DNA of 64,000 bases from contig JAJSPD010000041.1 in the NCBI GenBank assembly GCA_021307315.1, positions 62,001-126,000 of the forward strand, given 5' to 3'. The translations under genes were made by a program, and so were the position numbers. This document shows, piece after piece, positions 50,951-63,300 of the stretch (position 1 is the first letter of the stretch; the number at the start of each line of letters is the position of its first letter). This DNA comes from Bisporella sp. PMI_857. Lineage: Eukaryota > Ascomycota > Leotiomycetes > Helotiales > Helotiaceae. The notes beneath the pieces are model-generated. The model was not told where the DNA came from, did not search any database, and was given only the letters and a program-made list of their open reading frames with translations.

Positions 50951-51396
50951 GACTGTTCTTATTGAGACTGAGCGGGAAGCCACTCCTAAGGAAGGGAATG
51001 AATTGGCGCGGAGATTGGGATGCGATTTCTTTGAGGTCTGTGGAAGATATGCTTCGTTGGGTAAGACGATTGTGTCGCCAAGCAAGGAAAGTGGAAGGCG
51101 GTGTTATGAGGGATTCTCAGTGGAACTGGGGAAGTTGTCTTGGCTGGAGATAGTAAATGTTTTCTTGGTGGGGATGAGTACTTTTCAGTTTCTTCACAAA
51201 GCTTTGTCAATATCCACAAGATGTTTCTCGCGAACGTAAATATCCATCTTTGGATACCTTCGGGACCTGCGCTTTCTCACTTATTATTCTATTAGCTGTA
51301 GAGTACTTTATGCCGCTGGGAAGCAAGATAGATAGGCGATAGGCTAGCAGAGTTAGAAGCCCTTATCGCCAACCCAATCCTTTAACGCATCAACAT

Positions 51397-51535
51397 TAGA
51401 CTGCGCAGAAACCCACGGGGCGGGCCGGGGCCCCCGACCCACGGGGTCCCATGGGTCGGGTCTTCGAGGCTCGCTTCCCCCGTGGGGTGGGTTGTGTATT
51501 TTGACCCCGACCCGCGGGACCCCAATGGGGCCCCG
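51397..51535 (+). repeat. hAT left terminal inverted repeat region
   Basis: Starts TAGACTGCG and continues GC-rich with CCGACCCACGGGG, CCCATGGGTCGGG and GGTGGG words up to about 51,535, where the AT-rich body begins. It pairs with 57706-57845. Only short blocks match exactly; much of the region consists of internal CCCATGGG-type palindromes that could fold on themselves. Confidence 0.85.
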
Positions 51536-52101
51536 ACAATATTAACTAAATATAGAAACTACAGTCAAACCCCTCTACAAGAATGTAAGGCGGACTGGCA
51601 GAATTTTAAGAATATATAGGGTATTCTAGTATCGAGATGGTTCTTTCTAGTCTTGGCATTGATTTTTCTATGTGCACACAGGTTAAACAAGGCTATTTTG
51701 TATACTTATTTTTACAAACATACTTTAAATGCAAAGTTGTTGATTAGTATAAAGATTAGTATAAAAATTAAACTTCAAATGTTAAATCCAAACATATTGT
51801 AATGTAGTAAAAAAATTGTGAATTATAATAATATACAACACTAATATTTGTAACAACTCAAGTTGAATAAGGATCTCGATCCGTATATCTAGGTAGATAG
51901 ACTCAAAAGTGTAAACAACTATCAATTGTAATGACTAAAAGAACAAGCTACGGACAGAGGAAAGAAAAAAAAGCAAAGCTCTATATACAGTAACTGGCCG
52001 GAAGCTATAAGCATCCGGTAGTAAGCTCCGCCCGAGCTTTTGAGGTATCCGGTGCTATGCTCCAAGCGATGAAAAACCAGAGCCGTGACAATATTCTAAA
52101 A

Positions 52102-54913
52102 CTAATCTCTTTTTTGCCTTTTTGACCTGTGAATGCCTATTGGAGTATCCGGCACAATATCACCAATATCAGGAGTCGGAAGTCGAGGTAGCTCTTGACT
52201 ACTATTACTAGATAGTTCCCAGTTCGTTGTTTCAATTGACGGTTCGCGGCGATTCCGAAGTGTATTTTGAGACTGAATAGTCGAAAGTGGCTGATTTTGA
52301 TGAATTGACTGACGTAAAGATTTAGAAATCTTGTAATCCCAGCGTTCTTGAGCACGACGAGTTCGAATTTCTTCGTTTCCTTCTGGTTCTTCATCACTAA
52401 TATAGTCATGATTTTCCCAAAGATCAATTTGATCAAGTTGAATTTCAAGGTCTTTTTCTCGCGTTCTAATTTCCGTTTCCATATCTTCAAGTGTCATATC
52501 CTGAATATCAATAGTTGAAAATAGTATATTTTGAAGCTCACGTGTTCGTGAATGTTCAACGAGCGAATGATAAACCAAAAGAAGCGACCGAATAGTTGTC
52601 GGTTGAAGCTGGCCACGGCGATATCCGCATATATCACGTGCAAAGCTAAAAGCACGTTCTACTCCAACACCGGCCATCGGGATACAAAGTAAGTCTCTAG
52701 CCATTGCTGATAAGCCAGGAAGCTGTGTTTCAAGCGATTTCCAAACAAGTAGCGGTGATCGATTATCAGGCTCTGAAAAAACAACACAAAGATTAGTATA
52801 AAAATTAGTATAAAAAGTAGAATTGTAAACATACTCATAGCCAGCCATTCATCAACTTCAGAAAGAGAAAAGTCATCATCTTTGCGATAAGGGTTCTGAA
52901 TGTCTCGAGTAAAGCGCTTGCGACTTAATGCTAACGCTAAAGGATCGTGATTAACTTCTCGAATTTGAGAAAGTCGGTCAGCATTCGTAGACTTTTCTTT
53001 ATATTCCGTATCGTATAACGACCGAAATTGACGCTCGAATTCTTTGGCCCAATCAACTGTTTTGAAATTAAGCCAGCAATAATCTTCTTCAAAGCTTTTC
53101 AGCTTCGATTTTGGATCAAGAATTGCTCCGATGCCATATAAACTACCAAGACTACTATATGTTTTGTTATAGTAAGTATCAAGCTTGGCTTCTGCAGCGT
53201 TAATCGCACCAATTAAATCTTTTACCCAAAGTTGAGCAACAGACTTCTTGGTTAATACTCGGCGAGATTCTTGCAAGTGTTCAAACAACTCATCGTAAAT
53301 TGATAAAGCATAAGGCAATGTTACGCTTGTTGTTTTGCCGATTGTTGTTGTAAAAAAATTGAAAGGACGTAACAAATCGGCTAGATAGCCAATTTTTTTC
53401 CATTCCAATGCAGAAAATGAAAAAGGCTTAGCAGGATCATATGCACTGCAAAATTGATTAATAGACTCTTTAAGACGCAATGCACGAAGAATCATATGCA
53501 CTGTTGAGTCCCATCGAGTGCATACATCAATTAACAATGTAAGAACTGGATCATTCGGAGAAGATGAATCTCTGATTTGTTCTTGTTGAACTCTTTGAAA
53601 CCGATGTTTCCGCTGTGCACTGGAATTGACAAGAATAGCAAGCTTTCGAATCTAATATAAGATTAGTATAAAAATTAGTATAAAAGTCACGTGTTACATA
53701 CCTTTGCTAGTATATATGGAATACCACGTTTGTTGCTAGCTTTGATTTTCTCAAGATCAGACAGCTCCTTTTCTGCTACCCAATTCCGAACAAATGTTTC
53801 GTTGGTAGGTCTCAATTGAACAAAGCTCAAAAGTGCTTGAAGACTAAGTTGAATCACATGCGATAAACACGGCACGTGTTGGACTTTCTTTTTCAGAATA
53901 CTATTAGCTTTCAAAGCTTCTTGTAAGTATCCGTTGATTTCGAGAACCATTGTAGTATTCGAACTTGCATTGTCAGTTGTAATTGAAACAACACGATCAA
54001 AAAGATTGTGCTGTTGAAATACGTTATTGATAACTTGAGCAAGAGCATTTCCGGAATGAACGCCTACCAAACTTTCAAATCCTATTAATTCTTGACAAAG
54101 AACCCATGACTTATCAATATAGTGAGCTATTATACCCATAAATGATAGTCTTGTTGTACTAGACCAGCAATCAAGCGAAATTGCAATTTTGCTTCCAGGA
54201 ACAACATTTGAAAGCATGTTTTGTTCAAGTTTGACTGATTGTTCCATTAGTCGATTCTTCATAGTTGTTGCAGAAGGAAGTTCGAAATTTGGATTTTGCA
54301 TAACAGCTAGCTTTCTCCATTCAGGATTTTCGACCGCGCGGAAAGAAGTACGAAGTGAAACAATAGTTGCAAGGACCTGGTCGTGAAATGCTTGCTTCGT
54401 AAAGATTGGTTGCTATTAATATTAGACATTATACTAATATTTATACTAATCTACTTACAGAAATAGCGTGAAACATGTCTTCCACTTTTCTCTGCCTTGT
54501 ATTACTCTGGCTAGAATAAACAAGGCATTGCCGAGACGCTATATGACTAGACAAAGCTTTGTGCCGGTATTCCGCGTATTTGGATGTGCGAGAACCTTGT
54601 TGCAGTTTTGACATATGACTTTAGGCTCTCCGGTAATCCGGTGTATTCCTTGATCGAATTGTTTCCAGGCAATAGATTTTCGATTTTGAGATTCCCAATT
54701 CAATTGCTTTACCAAATCAATTGATTGGTTTGCAACAGCTTGAACTGCCCATTGTGTACTTAACCACCATTCAACAAACTTATCGTGATATTCGGGTTTC
54801 CATCGAAAATATAGGTTTTTTGGACCAATTTGCGAAAATGGTAAATTGTCAGAAGTATTTAGCTCAAATGAGCTGAAAGGATCAGAAAAGTCTTGCGAAG
54901 TACTTGACTCCAT
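52102..54913 (-). CDS. hAT transposase, one apparent 1-nt deletion
   Basis: Four exons: 54913-54459, 54412-53702, 53651-52835, 52772-52102. Exon 1 holds a BED-type zinc finger (VICQNCNKVLAHPN then a TRNTGT turn, with SSHI as the His part), but the frame slips by one base between NTGT and LSSHI near 54,561. With that slip the parts total 884 aa. Exon 2 has the RNase H-like core: ISLDCWSSTTRLSFMGIIAH (first Asp), DRVVSITTDNASSNTTMV (second Asp region) and HVPCLSHVIQLSLQ (C..H pair). Exon 3 carries LLIDVCTRWDSTVHMILR. Exon 4 carries the hAT dimerisation domain, with LSAMARDLLCIPMAGVGVER then AFSFARDICG. It should cut and paste this element from the nucleus. Exons 2-4 are fully open, so the single break may be a recent mutation or an assembly error. 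Start: the ATG at 54913. Confidence 0.88.
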
Positions 54914-55151
54914 AGCAACGAAAGTGTGCAAGTAAAAGAAAAAGCATCAAATCGGAAAGAAAAACCAAGTATTTAAACAACAAATTAAATTACTAATTCA
55001 AAAAAAATCGTACAAATGAAAGGCTATAATTAAACTTCCAAAAATTAATGTAAAATATAATGATTAGTATAAAGATTAGTATAAAATTTAATATATCTGC
55101 TTAAAGTTCCCTGCTTCATTTATTGTATATACTTAAAAACTACATATACAT

Positions 55152-56456
55152 TTACAGCTTACGCGGCTTTTGAAAGCTGCTTTGTAAGCCAAAGAATGCT
55201 TTAACGATTGTTTGACTTAAAGAATTGTCTGTCATCAAAAACAAATCATTATAAGCGGGGAAAATACGTTCGTACGATCCATCTTCCGGAATTTCCGTAG
55301 CATATACCATATCAAACGCTTCTTTATGACCTGTCAACGAATCGGAAAAGCCGAATCCTGTCTCATTTAACTTATCGTCGGCTGGCCACCAATTTGCAGG
55401 GCCCGGCAGATCGATCCACTCTTCATTTCCGTATGCCCATGCTGCAAGATTTTTCCAAACTGCTTTTTCTCCTTGAGTAAAGTATCTTGTAGGAGTTTTA
55501 TACGCATAGAATTTGCTATATCAGTTAGCAGATTAGTATAAAAATTAGTAGAAATTTATACTTCTTGTAAATGTAAGGACAGCTTGTTCTTTCCAAGTAT
55601 TCCTGTCCACCAGCAGAAAGCTTTCGGATTTTGCGGAACAAGGATCGACGGCTTCGGCGCCATTTTCTTTGCCAAAACTTAAATTCAAGCTTCTTGGCAT
55701 CCTAAAATTGTATTAGCGTTATACTAATCATTATATTAATCTGAAACTTACTAGAATAGATCGTTTATGCTTAGCAATCCCGTCATTTTTCAACTCCTTA
55801 GCAGTTTTGCCGACAACCGCCTTATCTCCGTTTTGCTTTTCATCTAATCTCCACATATGTTCAAACTCGTATTCGTCTTCCGAATCATACTCAATATCTT
55901 CCCATGCTGGATTTCCATCATCATCAATTGCATATAGGCCACCAATTTCTCCATAACCCAAAGCTTTTGCCACAGATTTCCAATCTTTGCCATCCCGTTC
56001 ACTATACAGGTTAGTATAAAAATTAGTATAATTAAAATCAAACGAACCGCTTTGTTTTAACCTGCAAAGCAGACTGCTCAATCATTCGCTTCTGCTCGGC
56101 AAAAGATGCGAGTGCAAATTCAGCAGACTTTTTGAGGACTTTTTTTCTGTATGTAACTGCTGCTTGATCTGCGGCTTTCGCTTTTTCGATCTGATTCTGA
56201 ATACTGTTGCTTTTTATAGCTTCAAGTCTTTTTCTAGCCTTAACAGTATGCACATTGGTAGAAAAACTGCCCGGAGATTTGCGCTTGCGTTTATTGGAAG
56301 AACCGATTTGCTGCGAAGAATCAAGATCCATATCAAATTCATGATCTGAATCATCAGAAATGACAATAATATCCTTTAAACCGATTAGTATACAGATTAA
56401 TATAATATTTCCATAAAAATTACCTGCTGAAGTTGATTTTCAGAAGAGGAAGCCAT
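55152..56456 (-). CDS. Second hAT-borne gene, 370-aa protein of unknown function
   Basis: Five exons join in frame: 56456-56424, 56373-56048, 56001-55752, 55701-55562, 55515-55152 (1113 nt). The donor of intron 2 (GTTCGT) is unusual; the others are standard. The N-terminal part has an acidic patch (DIIVISDDSDHEFDMDLD), then NKRKRKSP, a likely nuclear signal, and a long basic helix (KARKRLEAIKSNSIQNQIEK). The middle is acidic (DDDGNPAWEDIEYDSEDEYE). Then comes a Lys/Arg/Trp-rich stretch (KKLEFKFWQRKWRRSRRSLF) and a globular-looking end with GEKAVWKNLAAWAYGNEEWI, PGPANWWPADDK and FPAYNDLFLMTDNSL. No family recognised and no catalytic motif seen. It lies downstream of the histone gene in divergent orientation and 239 bp upstream of the transposase ATG, same strand. 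A chromatin- or DNA-associated accessory role is only a guess. Confidence 0.75.
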
Positions 56457-56956
56457 ATTGGAAAGGAACGCAACCGAAACGTAAGCGTATTTTGCAAATT
56501 TCAACTCGCAAGAACTAGAGCTTCAAAAATTAGTATAAAGATTAATATAGTACACCAAAAACACGTACTGCGATAGATATTTGACTTTGTTCTGATTTAA
56601 TAAGTTGGTGCGAAAATGATGAATGAGGAAAAGTACGCGTTATCCTGAAAAATAAGGCAGTCGCGTTTTGATGCCTCGATTTTAAGGCACCCAACTACTT
56701 TTCTCAACTTGACTTCTTTTAACTTTCAATTAAAGTTACCAACAACTATACTATACACAAGTATGTATTATATTTATCTTTTTTATATTCTATATTTATA
56801 TTAATCATTATACTAATTCTTTATAGTCTTCTCGTCGAAATCACAAAGTTATAACTTCACTTTCATCTTCAGCTTTTCTAATTCTTTTCGCTACTTTGCA
56901 CAGGTACATATCATTCTGTATTATACTAATATTTATTCTAATCTAAATAGGTTACA

Positions 56957-57506
56957 ATGGCACGTACCAAACAAACAGCTACCAAATCTGCTCGCAAACC
57001 CTCTGCCAAAACCCCTGCCAAAACCTCTGCCAAAACCTCTGCCAAAACCTCTGCAAAAGCTGTACCAAAAAGGAAATATCGAATGAAACCTGGCAGTATG
57101 TTGATTAATATAATGATTAGTATAAAACTAACATTTAAACGTAGCCAAAGCACTTAGAGAAATCAAACGGTACCAAAAAAGCACTGAGCTTTTAATCCCA
57201 AAGGCTCCATTTACTCGACTAGTTAAGGAAATAATGTATGACGTTACGTCTCGACACGCATTTCGCATTCAACTCAGTGCTCTACGATGTCTCCAAGAAG
57301 CCGCAGAATCTGCTTTGGTAACTGAGTTTGAACGTAAGTTATTTCATATAAATACATTATACTAATCTTTATACTAATCTTACTTTAAAGTCACAAATCT
57401 TGCCGCAATCCACGCTAAGAGAGTTACTATTCAGGTAAAGGATATGCATTTGGTTCAAAGAATGAGAGAGGGAATGACGGGCTATAAGTACCCAGGCCGG
57501 GGTTAA
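56957..57506 (+). CDS. Transposon-borne histone H3 variant with CENP-A-like core
   Basis: Three exons, 56957-57095, 57145-57333 and 57391-57506, join in frame (444 nt, 147 aa). The mature tail starts [10 protein letters not shown] as in H3 (K4, K9, S10 positions kept, R8 changed to T). It then departs into [19 protein letters not shown], losing the K14, K18, K23 and K27-S28 contexts. The fold follows: [48 protein letters not shown] and [18 protein letters not shown]. From KEI to LQE there are two more residues than in canonical H3 ([11 protein letters not shown] replaces DFKTDLRFQ), removing the K79 context; a longer loop 1 and LQEAAE are CENP-A traits. The C-terminus has an extra [11 protein letters not shown]. 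Two further GT..AG introns are visible in the 5' leader (about 56,760-56,830 and 56,904-56,949). It should assemble with H4 in nucleosomes if expressed. Confidence 0.88.
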
Positions 57507-57705
57507 AGAATCAAACGCAGTTCATACAAAGGGTTATTAAAGGTATACACGCTAGCGATAGAGCGCTAAGCATATAATAAAATTCGCAAACCAAAGCTTT
57601 AATACGTTTATATCGCGTATCTTTTTGATTAGTAGACTTATTAGTAGACTTATTAGTAGAATTTCTCTAACTTTACAGAAACTATTGTAATATCACGTGT
57701 AAATG

Positions 57706-57845
57706 TAATGGGTCCTTGGCACCCCATCAAAACCCCATGGGGTGGGGTGGGTGCTTTTGATAGACCCCGACCCATGGGGTGGGACCCCGACGGGTGGGGT
57801 CAAGTAGGTGAAAACCCGCCCCGTGGGACCCCAGTTCGCAGTCTA
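57706..57845 (-). repeat. hAT right terminal inverted repeat region
   Basis: Read inward from 57845 on the minus strand it begins TAGACTGCG, then CCCACGGGGCGGG, and shows GGGGTCCCACCCCATGGG and CACCCCACCCCATGGGG palindromic words. It borders the AT-rich body at about 57,706. Just inside, at 57,620-57,665, a separate triplet repeat of TTAGTAGACTTA occurs. Confidence 0.85.
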
Positions 57846-58200
57846 ATCAACATTACTCTAGACAGGGGTCGATTGATAGGGGGACAGTAGAGGACGGCAT
57901 GAGATAATGCCCTGTACTTGAGGCTCTGCCAACCCCTCTTCGATAGCCAGCCGACCTGTCGGACGTCACATTTATCCTCTTTTGGAACCAGGTGCATGTG
58001 CCGAACCAATATGCACTGTTCTGTACAACCACAGCTGGGCATCCCGGTGACACACCCCTTTTTTCCTCGTCGAAATGAGGCTCTGTGAATCTCTTGCAGC
58101 ACAGAATCAACTCGGTAACGCGTGGGACCCAGGAAAATGCGGATACATAGAGTAGCGACCCGCGGGCCGTCTGGCCAACAAACACTCCAACACAACAATC

Positions 58201-61015
58201 ATGTCTACTTTCGAACTCCTCGCAGAGCAAATAAGTTCCGCTGATTCTGGTAAGTAAAGCCCAGGCTCTCTCCCACTTCAGATCTATTGGTGACAGTTCC
58301 TAACTTTCCTTACCCTAGATGCCGAGATCAGAATTGAAGCAGCAATCCAGCTCTCTAACAATATTGAACACTATGTGTCTGGTCCAACATACGCCGGGTT
58401 CCTGAGGAAGCTCGTCCCGATATTCATCAACTGCCTTAAAGGCCCACCACTTTTTATCCCCACATCCCTAGAGCAGGTAAGAGCACCGCGCTCGAATTAT
58501 TAACAACATCTAATCCTACGAGCAGAAGCTTCGAATTTGCATCCTCACAATTCTCTATCAACTCCCTAAGAACTCTCCCGGACCTTTCGAACTATATACA
58601 GAAGATGTAGCGGATTTGTTGATAAATTTAGTGCGCATGGACAATGAGGAAAATGCGTCGCTATGTATCAAGATAATCATAGATATCATGCGATACCGGA
58701 CCAAAGTTCTTGGAGATAAGCTCCAGCCGTTCCTCGCCCTCATCGATCATATGTTCGACCAAATAAATTTGGTGGTGAGGGATCAATTGGACAACCAAGC
58801 ACCTTATAACTCTACACCTGGAACGTCACTACCCGAGAGCTCTCAGAACCACGACAACTCCCCTCGATCAGGTTCATCAACTGCGTCTATCTCTGATATT
58901 CATTTGGAGCAGCCAACTCTCCCGCTTCCGAAAGCAATGGCTTCGCTCAAGGTCCTTGGAGAGTGTTCCATCCTTGTCCAATCAATATTCGAGTTCTACC
59001 AGTCATCGGACTCTCTAGATATCAAACTCATCTTCCTCCGTATCAAGAGCATCCTCCTTCTTCAAGCGAAACTCCAAGAGCAAGCCCATGCCGCCGCAGC
59101 AGCGATGGGATCAATATTCACAGGAGTAAGTCCAAACATACGCGACAGAGCAGTATTCGGGGAGTTTATTGGGATTCAAGTCAGGACTATAAGCTTTCTT
59201 GCATGTCTGCTTCGAATCAAATTTCCGGAGACATGGAAGCAGTACAAGACACATGGTATACTGCTGCAATTAACACCGTTCACATTATGCACTCGCTCTG
59301 CAAGTTTAAAGGAATCGAAAAGTGGATGAACGAAAAGGATATTATTATTTGGTTCAAAATAGTAGGCAAGAACCCGGAAGCATATCTACGAGCCAATACA
59401 CTCTCACTACAGCTTCGTCTTGCGGCCGAACAAGCTAGCGAACAGTTGATGGTTGTCTTCACAAAGTTCTTGGAGCACCACCCCACAGACTTGGACACTC
59501 TTTTTAGCCTCGTTGAATCCGTGGCAAACGGCAAATTCAGTCAAACTCACCCGCTGTTTACATACATCTATCATTACATTATCTGCAACGAATCGATTGA
59601 GTACCAGAAGAAGATTGTGTTGCGTAGTTTGGAAGTTTACGCTAGTAAGAGGGCATCTCAGAGAACCAAGACTTTCTTGTTACACAACATTGTCAATCCC
59701 GTCGTTGCCAAGGACGTTATGCTGATGCCGAAGGAGGGAAGTCCCAAGAATCCTCGCCTGATGGACAAGGTTGTCATCAAGTCAATTCATACGAATATTT
59801 GGAAAGTCAGTTTCGGCGATCCAAATGATGACTTGACGGGGATCGATCACACCCGATTGGAGGCGCTTCAGTTGACCGCGACACTTGTGAAGTACCATCA
59901 TTCAACTCTGCAGGATGCAAGAAAGGACATCATGAAATTTGGCTGGGCCCATATTTATCTGGAGGATGTCATCAACAAACATGCGGCTTACGTTGTAATT
60001 AGCTATTTCATTGCACATTACGAGACACCAGCCAATCTTGTCCAACAGGTCTATCTTTCACTCCTAAAGACGAACCCGGGCGATGGTCGCGCATTAGTGA
60101 CGCAAGCTTTAGAACTCATTGCTACAGTCTTTCCAAACATGTGCAATGCAGTACCAGATGATCGAAATCCTATTTGGGCGGTTACTCCTCACCGAATCCT
60201 TACGGAAGAAAGGCGGCACGTCCCGCAGATAACTACCGTCCTCTCTTTCTTAGTCAAGCATGCGGATCTTTTCTACGAGTGTCGGGACAAGTTCATCATA
60301 CTTATTGTGGGGTCACTTCGAGCAATTGCGCAGCTTCCAAACTGTTCGGGTCAGAGCAAGAAGTTGGTTCTCCAATTGATGACATTAGTTTGGCAATGGG
60401 AGCAACAGCGCGTCGAAGGCAAGAAACCCTTAACTAAGGAGAAGAGTAAGTTGGAGAATTCAGGTGAGCAACTAATGACTTCTTCTATTCTGTCAATGAT
60501 TCGCTCAACCTTAGCAGATACATCTGAGTACATTATTCCAGCCTGGGCTTGCACCAAAACGCTTAACTATCTAGTGGAATTCATCGTGTCACTGAGGAGG
60601 CCTGTTCCTCCACTGTCCGCTGGCGCCAAAGCTGCGAACGCTTCCCACCGCCCTCGGTTGAAATGATCAATTCTATGTCCCTTCTTCATAGCCTTCTTCA
60701 TCCTCAGTACTGGGGAAATGTTGATATTGACTTATCAAACATTGAGATCTTGCTGGTGGGGGATCCAACGGACAATAAATGGGTCAACAGCGTGATGAAC
60801 GCCTTACAAGTCGTGCGATCATTGCCGATGTGAAGCCTCATACCTTGAAGAGCATACCGCTTCTGGAAAAGCTCTTGAAAATGTCTCGGAAGTCGGACAA
60901 CTCGGAAATTTGCGGTTGCCTATATGATGAAACCGATGTTAATGGCCTGAAAATGAAATCATTATGGAGCGTGGGAGTGAATCTTGAATTCTGGAGGTGA
61001 TCGTGTTTCCGGAAA
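58201..61015 (+). pseudogene. tra1: tra1 (SAGA/NuA4 PIKK-like subunit) relic, internally deleted and truncated
   Basis: The 5' end is well preserved. Exons 58201-58249, 58319-58476 and 58526 onward join in frame and read ..IEHYVSGPTYAGFLRKLVPI, LKIR-type text as LRICILTILYQLPKNSPGPF, and KAMASLKVLGECSILVQSIF up to FGEFIGIQVRTISFLACLLR (59220). These match the N-terminal HEAT region of fungal Tra1. The frame then changes, and the next block (from WYTAAINTVHIMHSLCKF) is from a much later part of Tra1, so a large internal piece is gone. That second frame continues to 60666 (ANTLSLQLRLAAEQASEQLM, VKYHHSTLQDARKDIMKFGW, INKHAAYVVISYFIAHYE). Further shifts occur near 60,665 and 60,820 before recognisable text (TLKSIPLLEKLLKMS) ends about 61,015. 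The FAT and kinase-like domains are absent. It cannot encode a functional Tra1; an intact copy is expected elsewhere because the gene is normally essential. Confidence 0.85.
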
Positions 61016-61425: not shown

Positions 61426-62126
61426 TATGGCATTATATAACGACCAACGTGCAACAACACAAAATGGGGTAATCAAATATAATAATTGATCAAATTGCAA
61501 ATCGCAAATCGAAATCATTAAATTAATAACTTAGTGCTTTTAACTTTTCTAGGCCCCTCGCCGTTCCTGGCGCTCTGGACGTTCCTGGCGCTTGCGGCTT
61601 TCCTGGTTCTCGACGTTCCTGGCGCTCTCGACTTTCCTGGTTCTTGACGTTCTTAGCGCTTTTGACTTTCCTGGCTCTCGACGTTCCTGGCGCTCTAGAT
61701 TTTCCTGGCTTTCGACGTTTCTGGAGCTGTCAACTTTTCAAAGCTGGTTTTGTTTGTATTTAAAAAAAAAAAAAATTGAAAAAATTTGCTATGTAAGAAG
61801 CTGTTTTGGCATATTTGCTTTTTTTTAAAGTATTTTCAAGTATTTGTGTTTACATATTTTTTTTACTTTTACAATAAAAAAAGAATACAGCTTTTAAGCC
61901 GAAAGCGCTAGGGACGTCGAGAACCAGGAAAGCCGCAAGCGCCAGGAACGTCCAGAGCGCCAGGAACGGCGAGGGGCCTAGAAAAGTTAAAAGCACTAAG
62001 TTATTAATTTAATGATTTCGATTTGCGATTTGCAATTTGATCAATTATCAATTTGATTACCCCATTTTGCGTTGTTGCACGTTGGTCGTTATATCATGCG
62101 GTAGTTGGTCGTTAGTTCATGCCATA
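61426..62126. mobile_element. Non-autonomous inverted-repeat element (about 700 bp) with long TIRs
   Basis: TATGGCAT at 61426-61433 returns inverted as ATGCCATA at 62119-62126. Inside it, about 190 bp at the left (from ATAACGACCAACGTGCAAC through CAAATTGCAAATCGCAAATC to GGCGCTTGCGGCTTTCC) is repeated inverted at the right (61,905-62,092) with few differences. The right arm has an extra internal duplication (two TAACGACCAAC copies). Next to the left arm, 61560-61740 holds a GC-rich tandem series (GACGTTCCTGGCGCTCT and variants); the centre is poly-A/T. No transposase is encoded. A 701-bp element with long TIRs suggests a MITE or foldback type; no target duplication was identified with confidence. 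Confidence 0.7.
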
Positions 62127-62789: not shown

Positions 62790-63300
62790 TGACATAATAA
62801 CGACCTTCGTCGGAAAACGCGAAACAAGGTAATCAAATACGATAATTGATCAAATTGCAAATCGCAAATCGAAATTGTTAAATTAATAACTTAGCGCTTT
62901 CGACCTTTCGTCGCCTCGACATCCCGCCGCCCCTCGACCTCTCCGCCGCTCCCGACTTTTTTAGCGCTTTCGACTTATCGACCCCTTGGTCACGGCCCTG
63001 GCCTCTTTTCGGTGGAGCTCAGCACCGGACACCACAGAGCTCGCTTATACTGGCCTCCGGCCAGTTCCTGTATATAGAGCGCTGCTTTTCTTCCCTTCTT
63101 CTGTCCGTAGCTCTGTCTCTTAGTTATGACAATTGATAGTTGTTCACACCTCTGAGTCCTTCTACCTAAGATCCACGGATCGAGATCCCTGTTCAGCTTG
63201 AGTTGTTACACCTTTTAGCGCTTTCGACCTTCTTTGCGTTTTCTATTATAAAAAGAAAGAAAAATACAAACACGAATACTTGTAAATACTTTAAAAAAAG
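62790..63300. mobile_element. Related inverted-repeat element copy, interrupted by the second LTR
   Basis: 62,790-62,985 repeats the outer arm of the element at 61.4 kb (CATAATAACGACC, GATCAAATTGCAAATCGCAA, TTAATAACTTAGYGCTTT) and continues with TCGACC/CTCGAC-type GC-rich units. After the LTR, 63,211-63,300 resumes with CCTTTTAGCGCTTTCGACC and, at 63,285, the centre sequence AAAGCAGATATGCC seen inverted at 61,807. So one 3'-truncated member of the family is split by the LTR, giving the relative order of insertions. Confidence 0.6.
62987..63210. mobile_element. Second LTR of the 27.5-kb family (solo or fragment)
   Basis: Shares with the solo LTR at 27506-27668 the start GTCACGGCC, CTCGCTTATACTGGCC, GCGCTGCTTTTCTTCCCTTC, CGGATCGAGATC and the end GAGTTGTTACA. 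It is about 60 bp longer, mainly from segments containing CACCGGACACCACAG and TTGATAGTTGTTCACACC. The flanking bases (CCCTT and CCTTT) are close to, but not exactly, a 5-bp duplication. No internal retrotransposon genes adjoin it. Confidence 0.7.

Follow-up and report, generated by a model that had tools for sequence, protein, structure and literature searches.

Transposons of the hAT type that carry histone H3-like genes have already been published, in Pyrenophora in 2013 (PMC3538342) and in the Mycosphaerellaceae in 2019 (PMC6710886). For the hAT element of Pyrenophora tritici-repentis, Manning et al. 2013 (PMC3538342) reported ESTs of the H3-like gene and explained the case by transduplication, possibly accompanied by drift. 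Dhillon et al. described H3 amplification in six Mycosphaerellaceae species, with a hAT domain in four of them, and likewise interpreted the H3-like cargo as transduplication; in Pseudocercospora fijiensis, every H3-like copy was inactivated (PMC6710886). Among transposons with other factors, VANDAL21 of Arabidopsis has the target arrays of VANC21 in its non-coding parts (Hosaka et al. 2017, PMC5735166), and fungal DNA transposons, hAT elements included, encode TET/JBP dioxygenases (PMC12730594).

Here, a 64,000-bp stretch of the 55.6-Mb genome of Bisporella sp. PMI_857 (Leotiomycetes, Helotiales), contig C221, positions 62001–126000, was analysed; this stretch is called the window. It holds a hAT element with an H3-like gene, H3L. 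As in Pyrenophora, a transposase, a central ORF and H3L lie between the same ends, a likeness of layout, and the two elements differ in size (5.6 kb in Pyrenophora vs 6.4 kb), in host class (Dothideomycetes vs Leotiomycetes) and in that Pyrenophora has 26 nearly identical H3L copies, whereas mutated copies occur in Bisporella (PMC3538342). The Mycosphaerellaceae elements resemble that of Bisporella in being hAT elements with an 8-bp target duplication, an H3-like cargo apart from host H3 and repeat-induced point mutation (RIP), but they are intronless and about 9.5 kb long, whereas the Bisporella H3L has three exons; each genome there has between 135 and 784 H3-like copies, all inactivated by RIP, whereas Bisporella has two intact copies, and no further domains were reported from the Mycosphaerellaceae elements (PMC6710886). 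The cargo of the TET/JBP transposons acts on epigenetic marks but is an enzyme, whereas that of Bisporella is a histone (PMC12730594).

Transposon-borne H3 is a known kind of cargo, and the initial annotation of this DNA, which knew of no established class of transposon-borne core histones, was mistaken on this point. What is new in Bisporella is a member from the Leotiomycetes, evidence for an old H3L lineage and doublets of a short motif in the introns. Among the matches listed in a literature search (titles and abstract starts, with subscription literature thinly covered), no paper united such cases as one element-linked H3 family.

Layout and copies of the hAT element

A perfect 8-bp target duplication, ATCAACAT, borders the element at either end, and the element terminates in inverted repeats, the combination that marks a hAT element. 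It contains three genes, with the transposase and a second gene on the minus strand and H3L on the plus strand. The features, in window coordinates, are as follows.

51389..51396, no strand, left target-site duplication ATCAACAT
51397..57845, no strand, hAT element, 6,449 bp, with a full copy on contig C3 at 99.5% identity
51397..51405, no strand, left terminal inverted repeat TAGACTGCG
52102..54913, minus strand, hAT transposase gene, exons 54913-54459, 54412-53702, 53651-52835 and 52772-52102
55152..56456, minus strand, second gene, 370 aa, predicted splicing, exons 56456-56424, 56373-56048, 56001-55752, 55701-55562 and 55515-55152
56904..56950, plus strand, predicted intron in the H3L 5ʹ UTR (GTACAT...TAG), holding a doublet, splicing called by eye
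56957..57506, plus strand, H3L, histone H3-like, exons 56957-57095, 57145-57333 and 57391-57506
57837..57845, no strand, right terminal inverted repeat CGCAGTCTA
57846..57853, no strand, right target-site duplication ATCAACAT

The transposase matched the hAT C-terminal dimerisation family PF05699 with 39.6 bits (cut-off 21.4), as a hAT transposase should, and the hAT RNase-H-fold family PF14372 with 20.4 bits, below the cut-off of 27. The absence of decay that the initial annotation had noted holds for H3L and not for the transposase, whose exon 1 frame in the window is interrupted relative to the C3 copy. The C3 frame is likewise broken by single-base gaps, and the single-base length differences in both copies may be assembly errors. 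For the second gene, a Pfam search with a near-identical draft as the query gave no family at E up to 1, and the structure model of its last exon had a pLDDT of 37.6 and no usable fold. Near its N-terminus, the second protein reads DIIVISDDSD (window 56373-56340, minus strand), which resembles a SUMO-interaction motif with an acidic stretch after it.

Six copies of the element were found in the genome, on the window contig, C3, C14, C189, C47 and C258. The C3 copy is full length and differs from the window copy by 15 substitutions plus indels; matching 8-bp flanks were looked for around it and none were found. On C14 the right part is kept, H3L included, while the end of contig C189 falls inside exon 1 of H3L, leaving only the start of the gene. 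The other two do not reach the H3L region, C47 holding the left 1.5 kb at a contig start and C258 two left-hand pieces. H3L is present in four of the six copies, that is, in every copy that reaches its region (window, C3, C14 and C189), and is a regular part of the element, as initially proposed. It is intact in the window and C3 copies and RIP-mutated in the other two, the C14 gene having lost its start and gained three internal stops.

When compared with the window copy, the share of C>T or G>A among substitutions was 75/78 in C14, 733/744 in C189 and 214/214 in C47, mostly at CpA and CpT; these three copies have been hit by RIP. The C258 copy, with 178 differences including 77 C>T or G>A, was excluded from this count because it was misaligned across a deletion and an insertion. 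As RIP struck C14, C189 and C47, H3L does not protect every copy. Neither H3L nor the last exon of the second gene turned up in the Bisporella genome outside copies of this element; the transposase exon had 39 matching places, 33 of them at merely 23–35% identity.

The H3-like gene and its relatives

Both H3L introns (57096-57144 and 57334-57390) are of the GT...AG type, and the product of 147 aa has no stop within its reading frame and matched the Pfam Histone family PF00125 with 104.6 bits (cut-off 26.4). Here the description in the initial annotation stood up throughout: an intact three-exon gene of H3 fold between element ends with a perfect 8-bp duplication, an ARTKQTA tail, a KTSA-type repeat, LQEAAE, a loop 1 that exceeds that of host H3 by two residues, and a remodelled tail and lost K79 that are real in both sequence and alignment. 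The protein is not a canonical H3, as its match is limited to the initial ARTKQTA and it is without the conserved tail through K27 and the RGERA/RGERS end. Residue 8 is T in place of R, K9 is kept, and the ARKS context of K27 is absent.

The H3L genes of the window and C3 differ by three amino-acid changes and a 12-bp deletion, with 0 synonymous changes, and the pair thus gives no sign of constraint. Because the copies differ almost solely by RIP-type changes, dN/dS among them is uninformative. A structure model of the C3 protein had helices at residues 41–54, 62–76 and 86–135 (mean pLDDT 70.8, pTM 0.37) and contains the H3 helices, with helices 2 and 3 merged in this monomer model. A structure search with the model matched nucleosome entries (best E 4.7e-7), with poor superposition (TM 0.49 by query, rmsd 10–21 among the 50 matches listed).

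Among the Bisporella histone loci are a canonical H3 on C35 and two of CenH3 type, a CenH3 on C24 and a CenH3-like gene on C80. The latter (C80:5700-6063, on a 36.6-kb contig) has a frame that stops early (RIRGV); an ascomycete does not usually have two CenH3 genes.

Relatives of H3L were found by homology and chosen by the signature EFx[LM]T, a selection that favours conserved ones. A profile search with the H3L alignment returned, among the 120 matches listed, mostly tandem-H3 predictions, and P0204 and P0212 joined the group. P0099 and a Tribonema protein were assigned to no group, and P0099 was placed with H3 in the tree. The tree comprised 22 rows and 128 columns, with 11 H3L rows: two from Bisporella, two from Pseudogymnoascus, and one each from Tricladium, Stromatinia, Monilinia, Clarireedia, Stipitochalara, Talaromyces and Paracoccidioides. 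All 11 rows, that is, nine proteins from eight other genera plus Bisporella, formed one side of a branch with support of 100/98, and the host CenH3 stayed with H3 despite its long branch. Joining the Bisporella H3L to host H3 was 49.0 log units worse and was rejected (p-AU 4.45e-6), which rules out a recent capture of the canonical host gene and agrees with the initial view that a simple capture is disfavoured. Joining it to the host CenH3 was 36.0 log units worse and also rejected (p-AU 0.000334), ruling out CENP-A kinship of the Bisporella H3L. The H3/CENP-A tree that the initial annotation had suggested therefore sets H3L apart from H3 and from the host CenH3, while the constraint uniting all H3L with CenH3 was not rejected (p-AU 0.274). 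In the N-terminal half (61 columns), H3L needs two changes and formed one group in 0% of 200 bootstrap trees; the single grouping thus depends on the C-terminal half. Judged from these alignments, the better-supported reading is that H3L would be an old lineage and not a fresh capture, belonging to neither H3 nor CenH3.

The initial annotation had also linked H3L to CENP-A. An element gene of CENP-A type that recruits centromere chromatin would fit the loop 1 extension relative to host H3, LQEAAE, and the unrejected union of all H3L with CenH3, but the rejected pairing with the host CenH3 and a tail of H3 type speak against it, and we consider it very improbable. Across the 11 H3L rows, loop 1, counted on the alignment, is between one residue shorter and four residues longer than in H3 (Bisporella +2; host CenH3 +3); as it varies within the group, a longer loop 1 is no CENP-A mark of H3L. 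ARTKQTA occurred among the 11 rows in those of Bisporella only.

Several changes were common to the whole group, with L103E, D106M/L and A127V in 11/11 rows and R63 and K79 replaced in 11/11. Positions 63, 103, 106 and 127, which lie at the DNA contact or on the C-terminal surface, are changed in every row, as would suit a co-factor of transposition: H3L, with H4 or alone, might bend or package the ends or the excised element for transposase assembly, or steer insertion, leaving silencing unaltered. H3L and the transposase do belong to one element, but the other hAT families of the genome have transposases and no H3L, and such a role seems quite unlikely.

In other species, the H3L genes sit on long contigs with the annotation of ordinary proteins, and no contig match paired H3L with a transposase (the transposase relatives being eight proteins). 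The annotation is what would be expected of a host H3 variant, a patchily kept ascomycete gene of which the element captured one allele; we hold this origin to be unlikely, as no H3L was found outside the element in the Bisporella genome and the Pyrenophora H3L also lies within a hAT element (PMC3538342). Searches of viral contigs gave 0 matches for H3L, for the transposase and for the doublet motif. In bacterial and archaeal contigs 10 loci matched; the six whose stretch could be read carry the canonical FEDTN, and none of the 10 has EFE[LM]T.

H3L might instead be passenger cargo, an H3 variant acquired long ago that brings no benefit and is passed on by hitch-hiking while decaying lineage by lineage. 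The decay of copies through RIP and the lack of a synonymous excess between the two intact H3L copies are consistent with this, as is the transduplication by which the authors of both published cases explained them (PMC3538342, PMC6710886). Neutral cargo, however, would not be expected to recur in a three-gene layout in another class (PMC3538342), nor to be found intact, with one and the same diverged histone fold, among the nine H3L proteins from eight other genera, if it is element-borne there, and we regard this explanation as doubtful.

A doublet motif in the introns

The doublet TTATACTAATnnTTATACTAAT, with up to three mismatches allowed, occurred at 16 sites in the element and at none in the remaining 57,551 bases of the window, the mean over 100 Markov simulations being 0.0. 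The sites are as follows.

51743..51764, minus strand, doublet left of the transposase
52792..52813, minus strand, doublet in transposase intron 3
53662..53683, minus strand, doublet in transposase intron 2
54429..54450, plus strand, doublet in transposase intron 1, reversed relative to the gene
55063..55096, minus strand, two overlapping doublets (0 and 3 mismatches) in the gap between transposase and second gene
55532..55553, minus strand, doublet in second-gene intron 4
55719..55740, plus strand, doublet in second-gene intron 3, reversed
56010..56031, minus strand, doublet in second-gene intron 2
56384..56405, minus strand, doublet in second-gene intron 1
56529..56550, minus strand, doublet 5ʹ of the second gene
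56796..56817, plus strand, doublet 5ʹ of H3L
56921..56942, plus strand, doublet in the predicted H3L 5ʹ UTR intron
57104..57125, minus strand, doublet in H3L intron 1, reversed
57357..57378, plus strand, doublet in H3L intron 2
57640..57661, minus strand, weak doublet (3 mismatches) 3ʹ of H3L

Every intron holds a doublet (10/10; nine in coding sequence and the one predicted in the H3L 5ʹ UTR), seven being oriented with the gene and three reversed, and the other six doublets lie between genes or beside the element ends. None of the 16 overlaps coding sequence, though this makes up 65% of the element. Branch sites (ACTAAT) may account for the doublets that run with the gene and not for the reversed ones. 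A branch point is unlikely to be the entire meaning of the motif, since three of the ten introns have it reversed and contain, as read by eye, another CTAAT or CTAAC near the 3ʹ end.

Genome-wide, a stricter pattern gave 45 sites, compared to 0 for the reversed control. The element copies contained 39 of them, and the six elsewhere comprised four beside other hAT transposases, one at a MULE-type transposase and one on C199. The four diverged hAT transposases that adjoin doublets are at C3:138600-141800, C3:20874, C3:51496 and C249:124505, and searches for the histone and the second gene found neither beside them. At C240:275900-277900, the intron of the MULE-type transposase, recognised by eye, holds a doublet with one mismatch. 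The doublet may be common to two transposon superfamilies, hAT and MULE.

The concentration of a motif in an element's own non-coding DNA is shared with VANDAL21, where a short motif is also repeated in introns and other non-coding DNA and, as predicted for Bisporella, the element encodes a chromatin factor; VANDAL21, however, is a MuDR-type element whose factor VANC is not a histone, and motif binding has been shown there, whereas binding to the Bisporella doublet is a prediction (PMC5735166).

Two transposases from assembled public reads, P0122 and P0123, are 51% and 48% identical to that of the element; their unspliced predictions cross these same introns and match the back-translated doublet with one and no mismatch, respectively, indicating that the doublet has long been kept. 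Among 203 background proteins (mostly histones) used as a control, one reached three mismatches and none had fewer. The H3L prediction from Tricladium has a weak motif-like start with three mismatches, which one of these 203 proteins equals.

Possible use of H3L by the element, and neighbouring DNA

Our preferred reading, put forward tentatively and at somewhat less than even confidence, is that the divergent H3 of this three-gene hAT element serves the element as its own variant. The prediction is that H3L pairs with host H4 and that the resulting nucleosomes are less accessible to host silencing marks. In favour of this reading, H3L is kept in all four copies that reach its region, the gene is intact and it has kin in other fungi; it also co-occurs with the second gene in the element. 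H3K9 methyltransferases of the SUV39/DIM-5 type require R8, and R63, replaced in H3L, contacts DNA. Having entered nucleosomes together with host H4, H3L with T8 instead of R8, without the ARKS context of K27 and with K79 and R63 replaced could give chromatin that carries fewer repressive marks or is looser. Such chromatin would in turn allow the transposase to be made and to reach the element ends. The doublets might be the sites at which a protein of the element, either the transposase or the second-gene product, delivers this effect, by analogy with VANC21 for VANDAL21, and this is the least supported step.

A broader version, which we regard as rather unlikely, is that hAT-H3L elements are self-chromatinising: a dedicated H3 lineage would have been held for long across ascomycete classes, with introns marked by doublets, and the element's own H3 would replace host H3 and block silencing. 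If the element does use H3L, a core histone would join DNA demethylases and VANC proteins as anti-silencing tools of transposons, and the published cases, interpreted as accidental captures, would belong to a single old H3 lineage tied to such elements. By encoding an H3 itself, such a transposon would also provide a natural test of which H3 residues silencing depends on.

The DNA beside the element has features of its own. Just to the right, window 58202-60666 is a Tra1-like stretch that matched part of the Pfam Tra1_ring profile with 329 bits and is perhaps a truncated duplicate. It is followed at 61540-62000 by an inverted repeat, MITE-like by eye, with arms of GCCAGGAACGTC-like units and an AT-rich centre. 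About 157 bp of the element (51849-52005) recur inverted at 63053-63210 with 85% identity and also occur twice in locus L006, indicating a small dispersed repeat.
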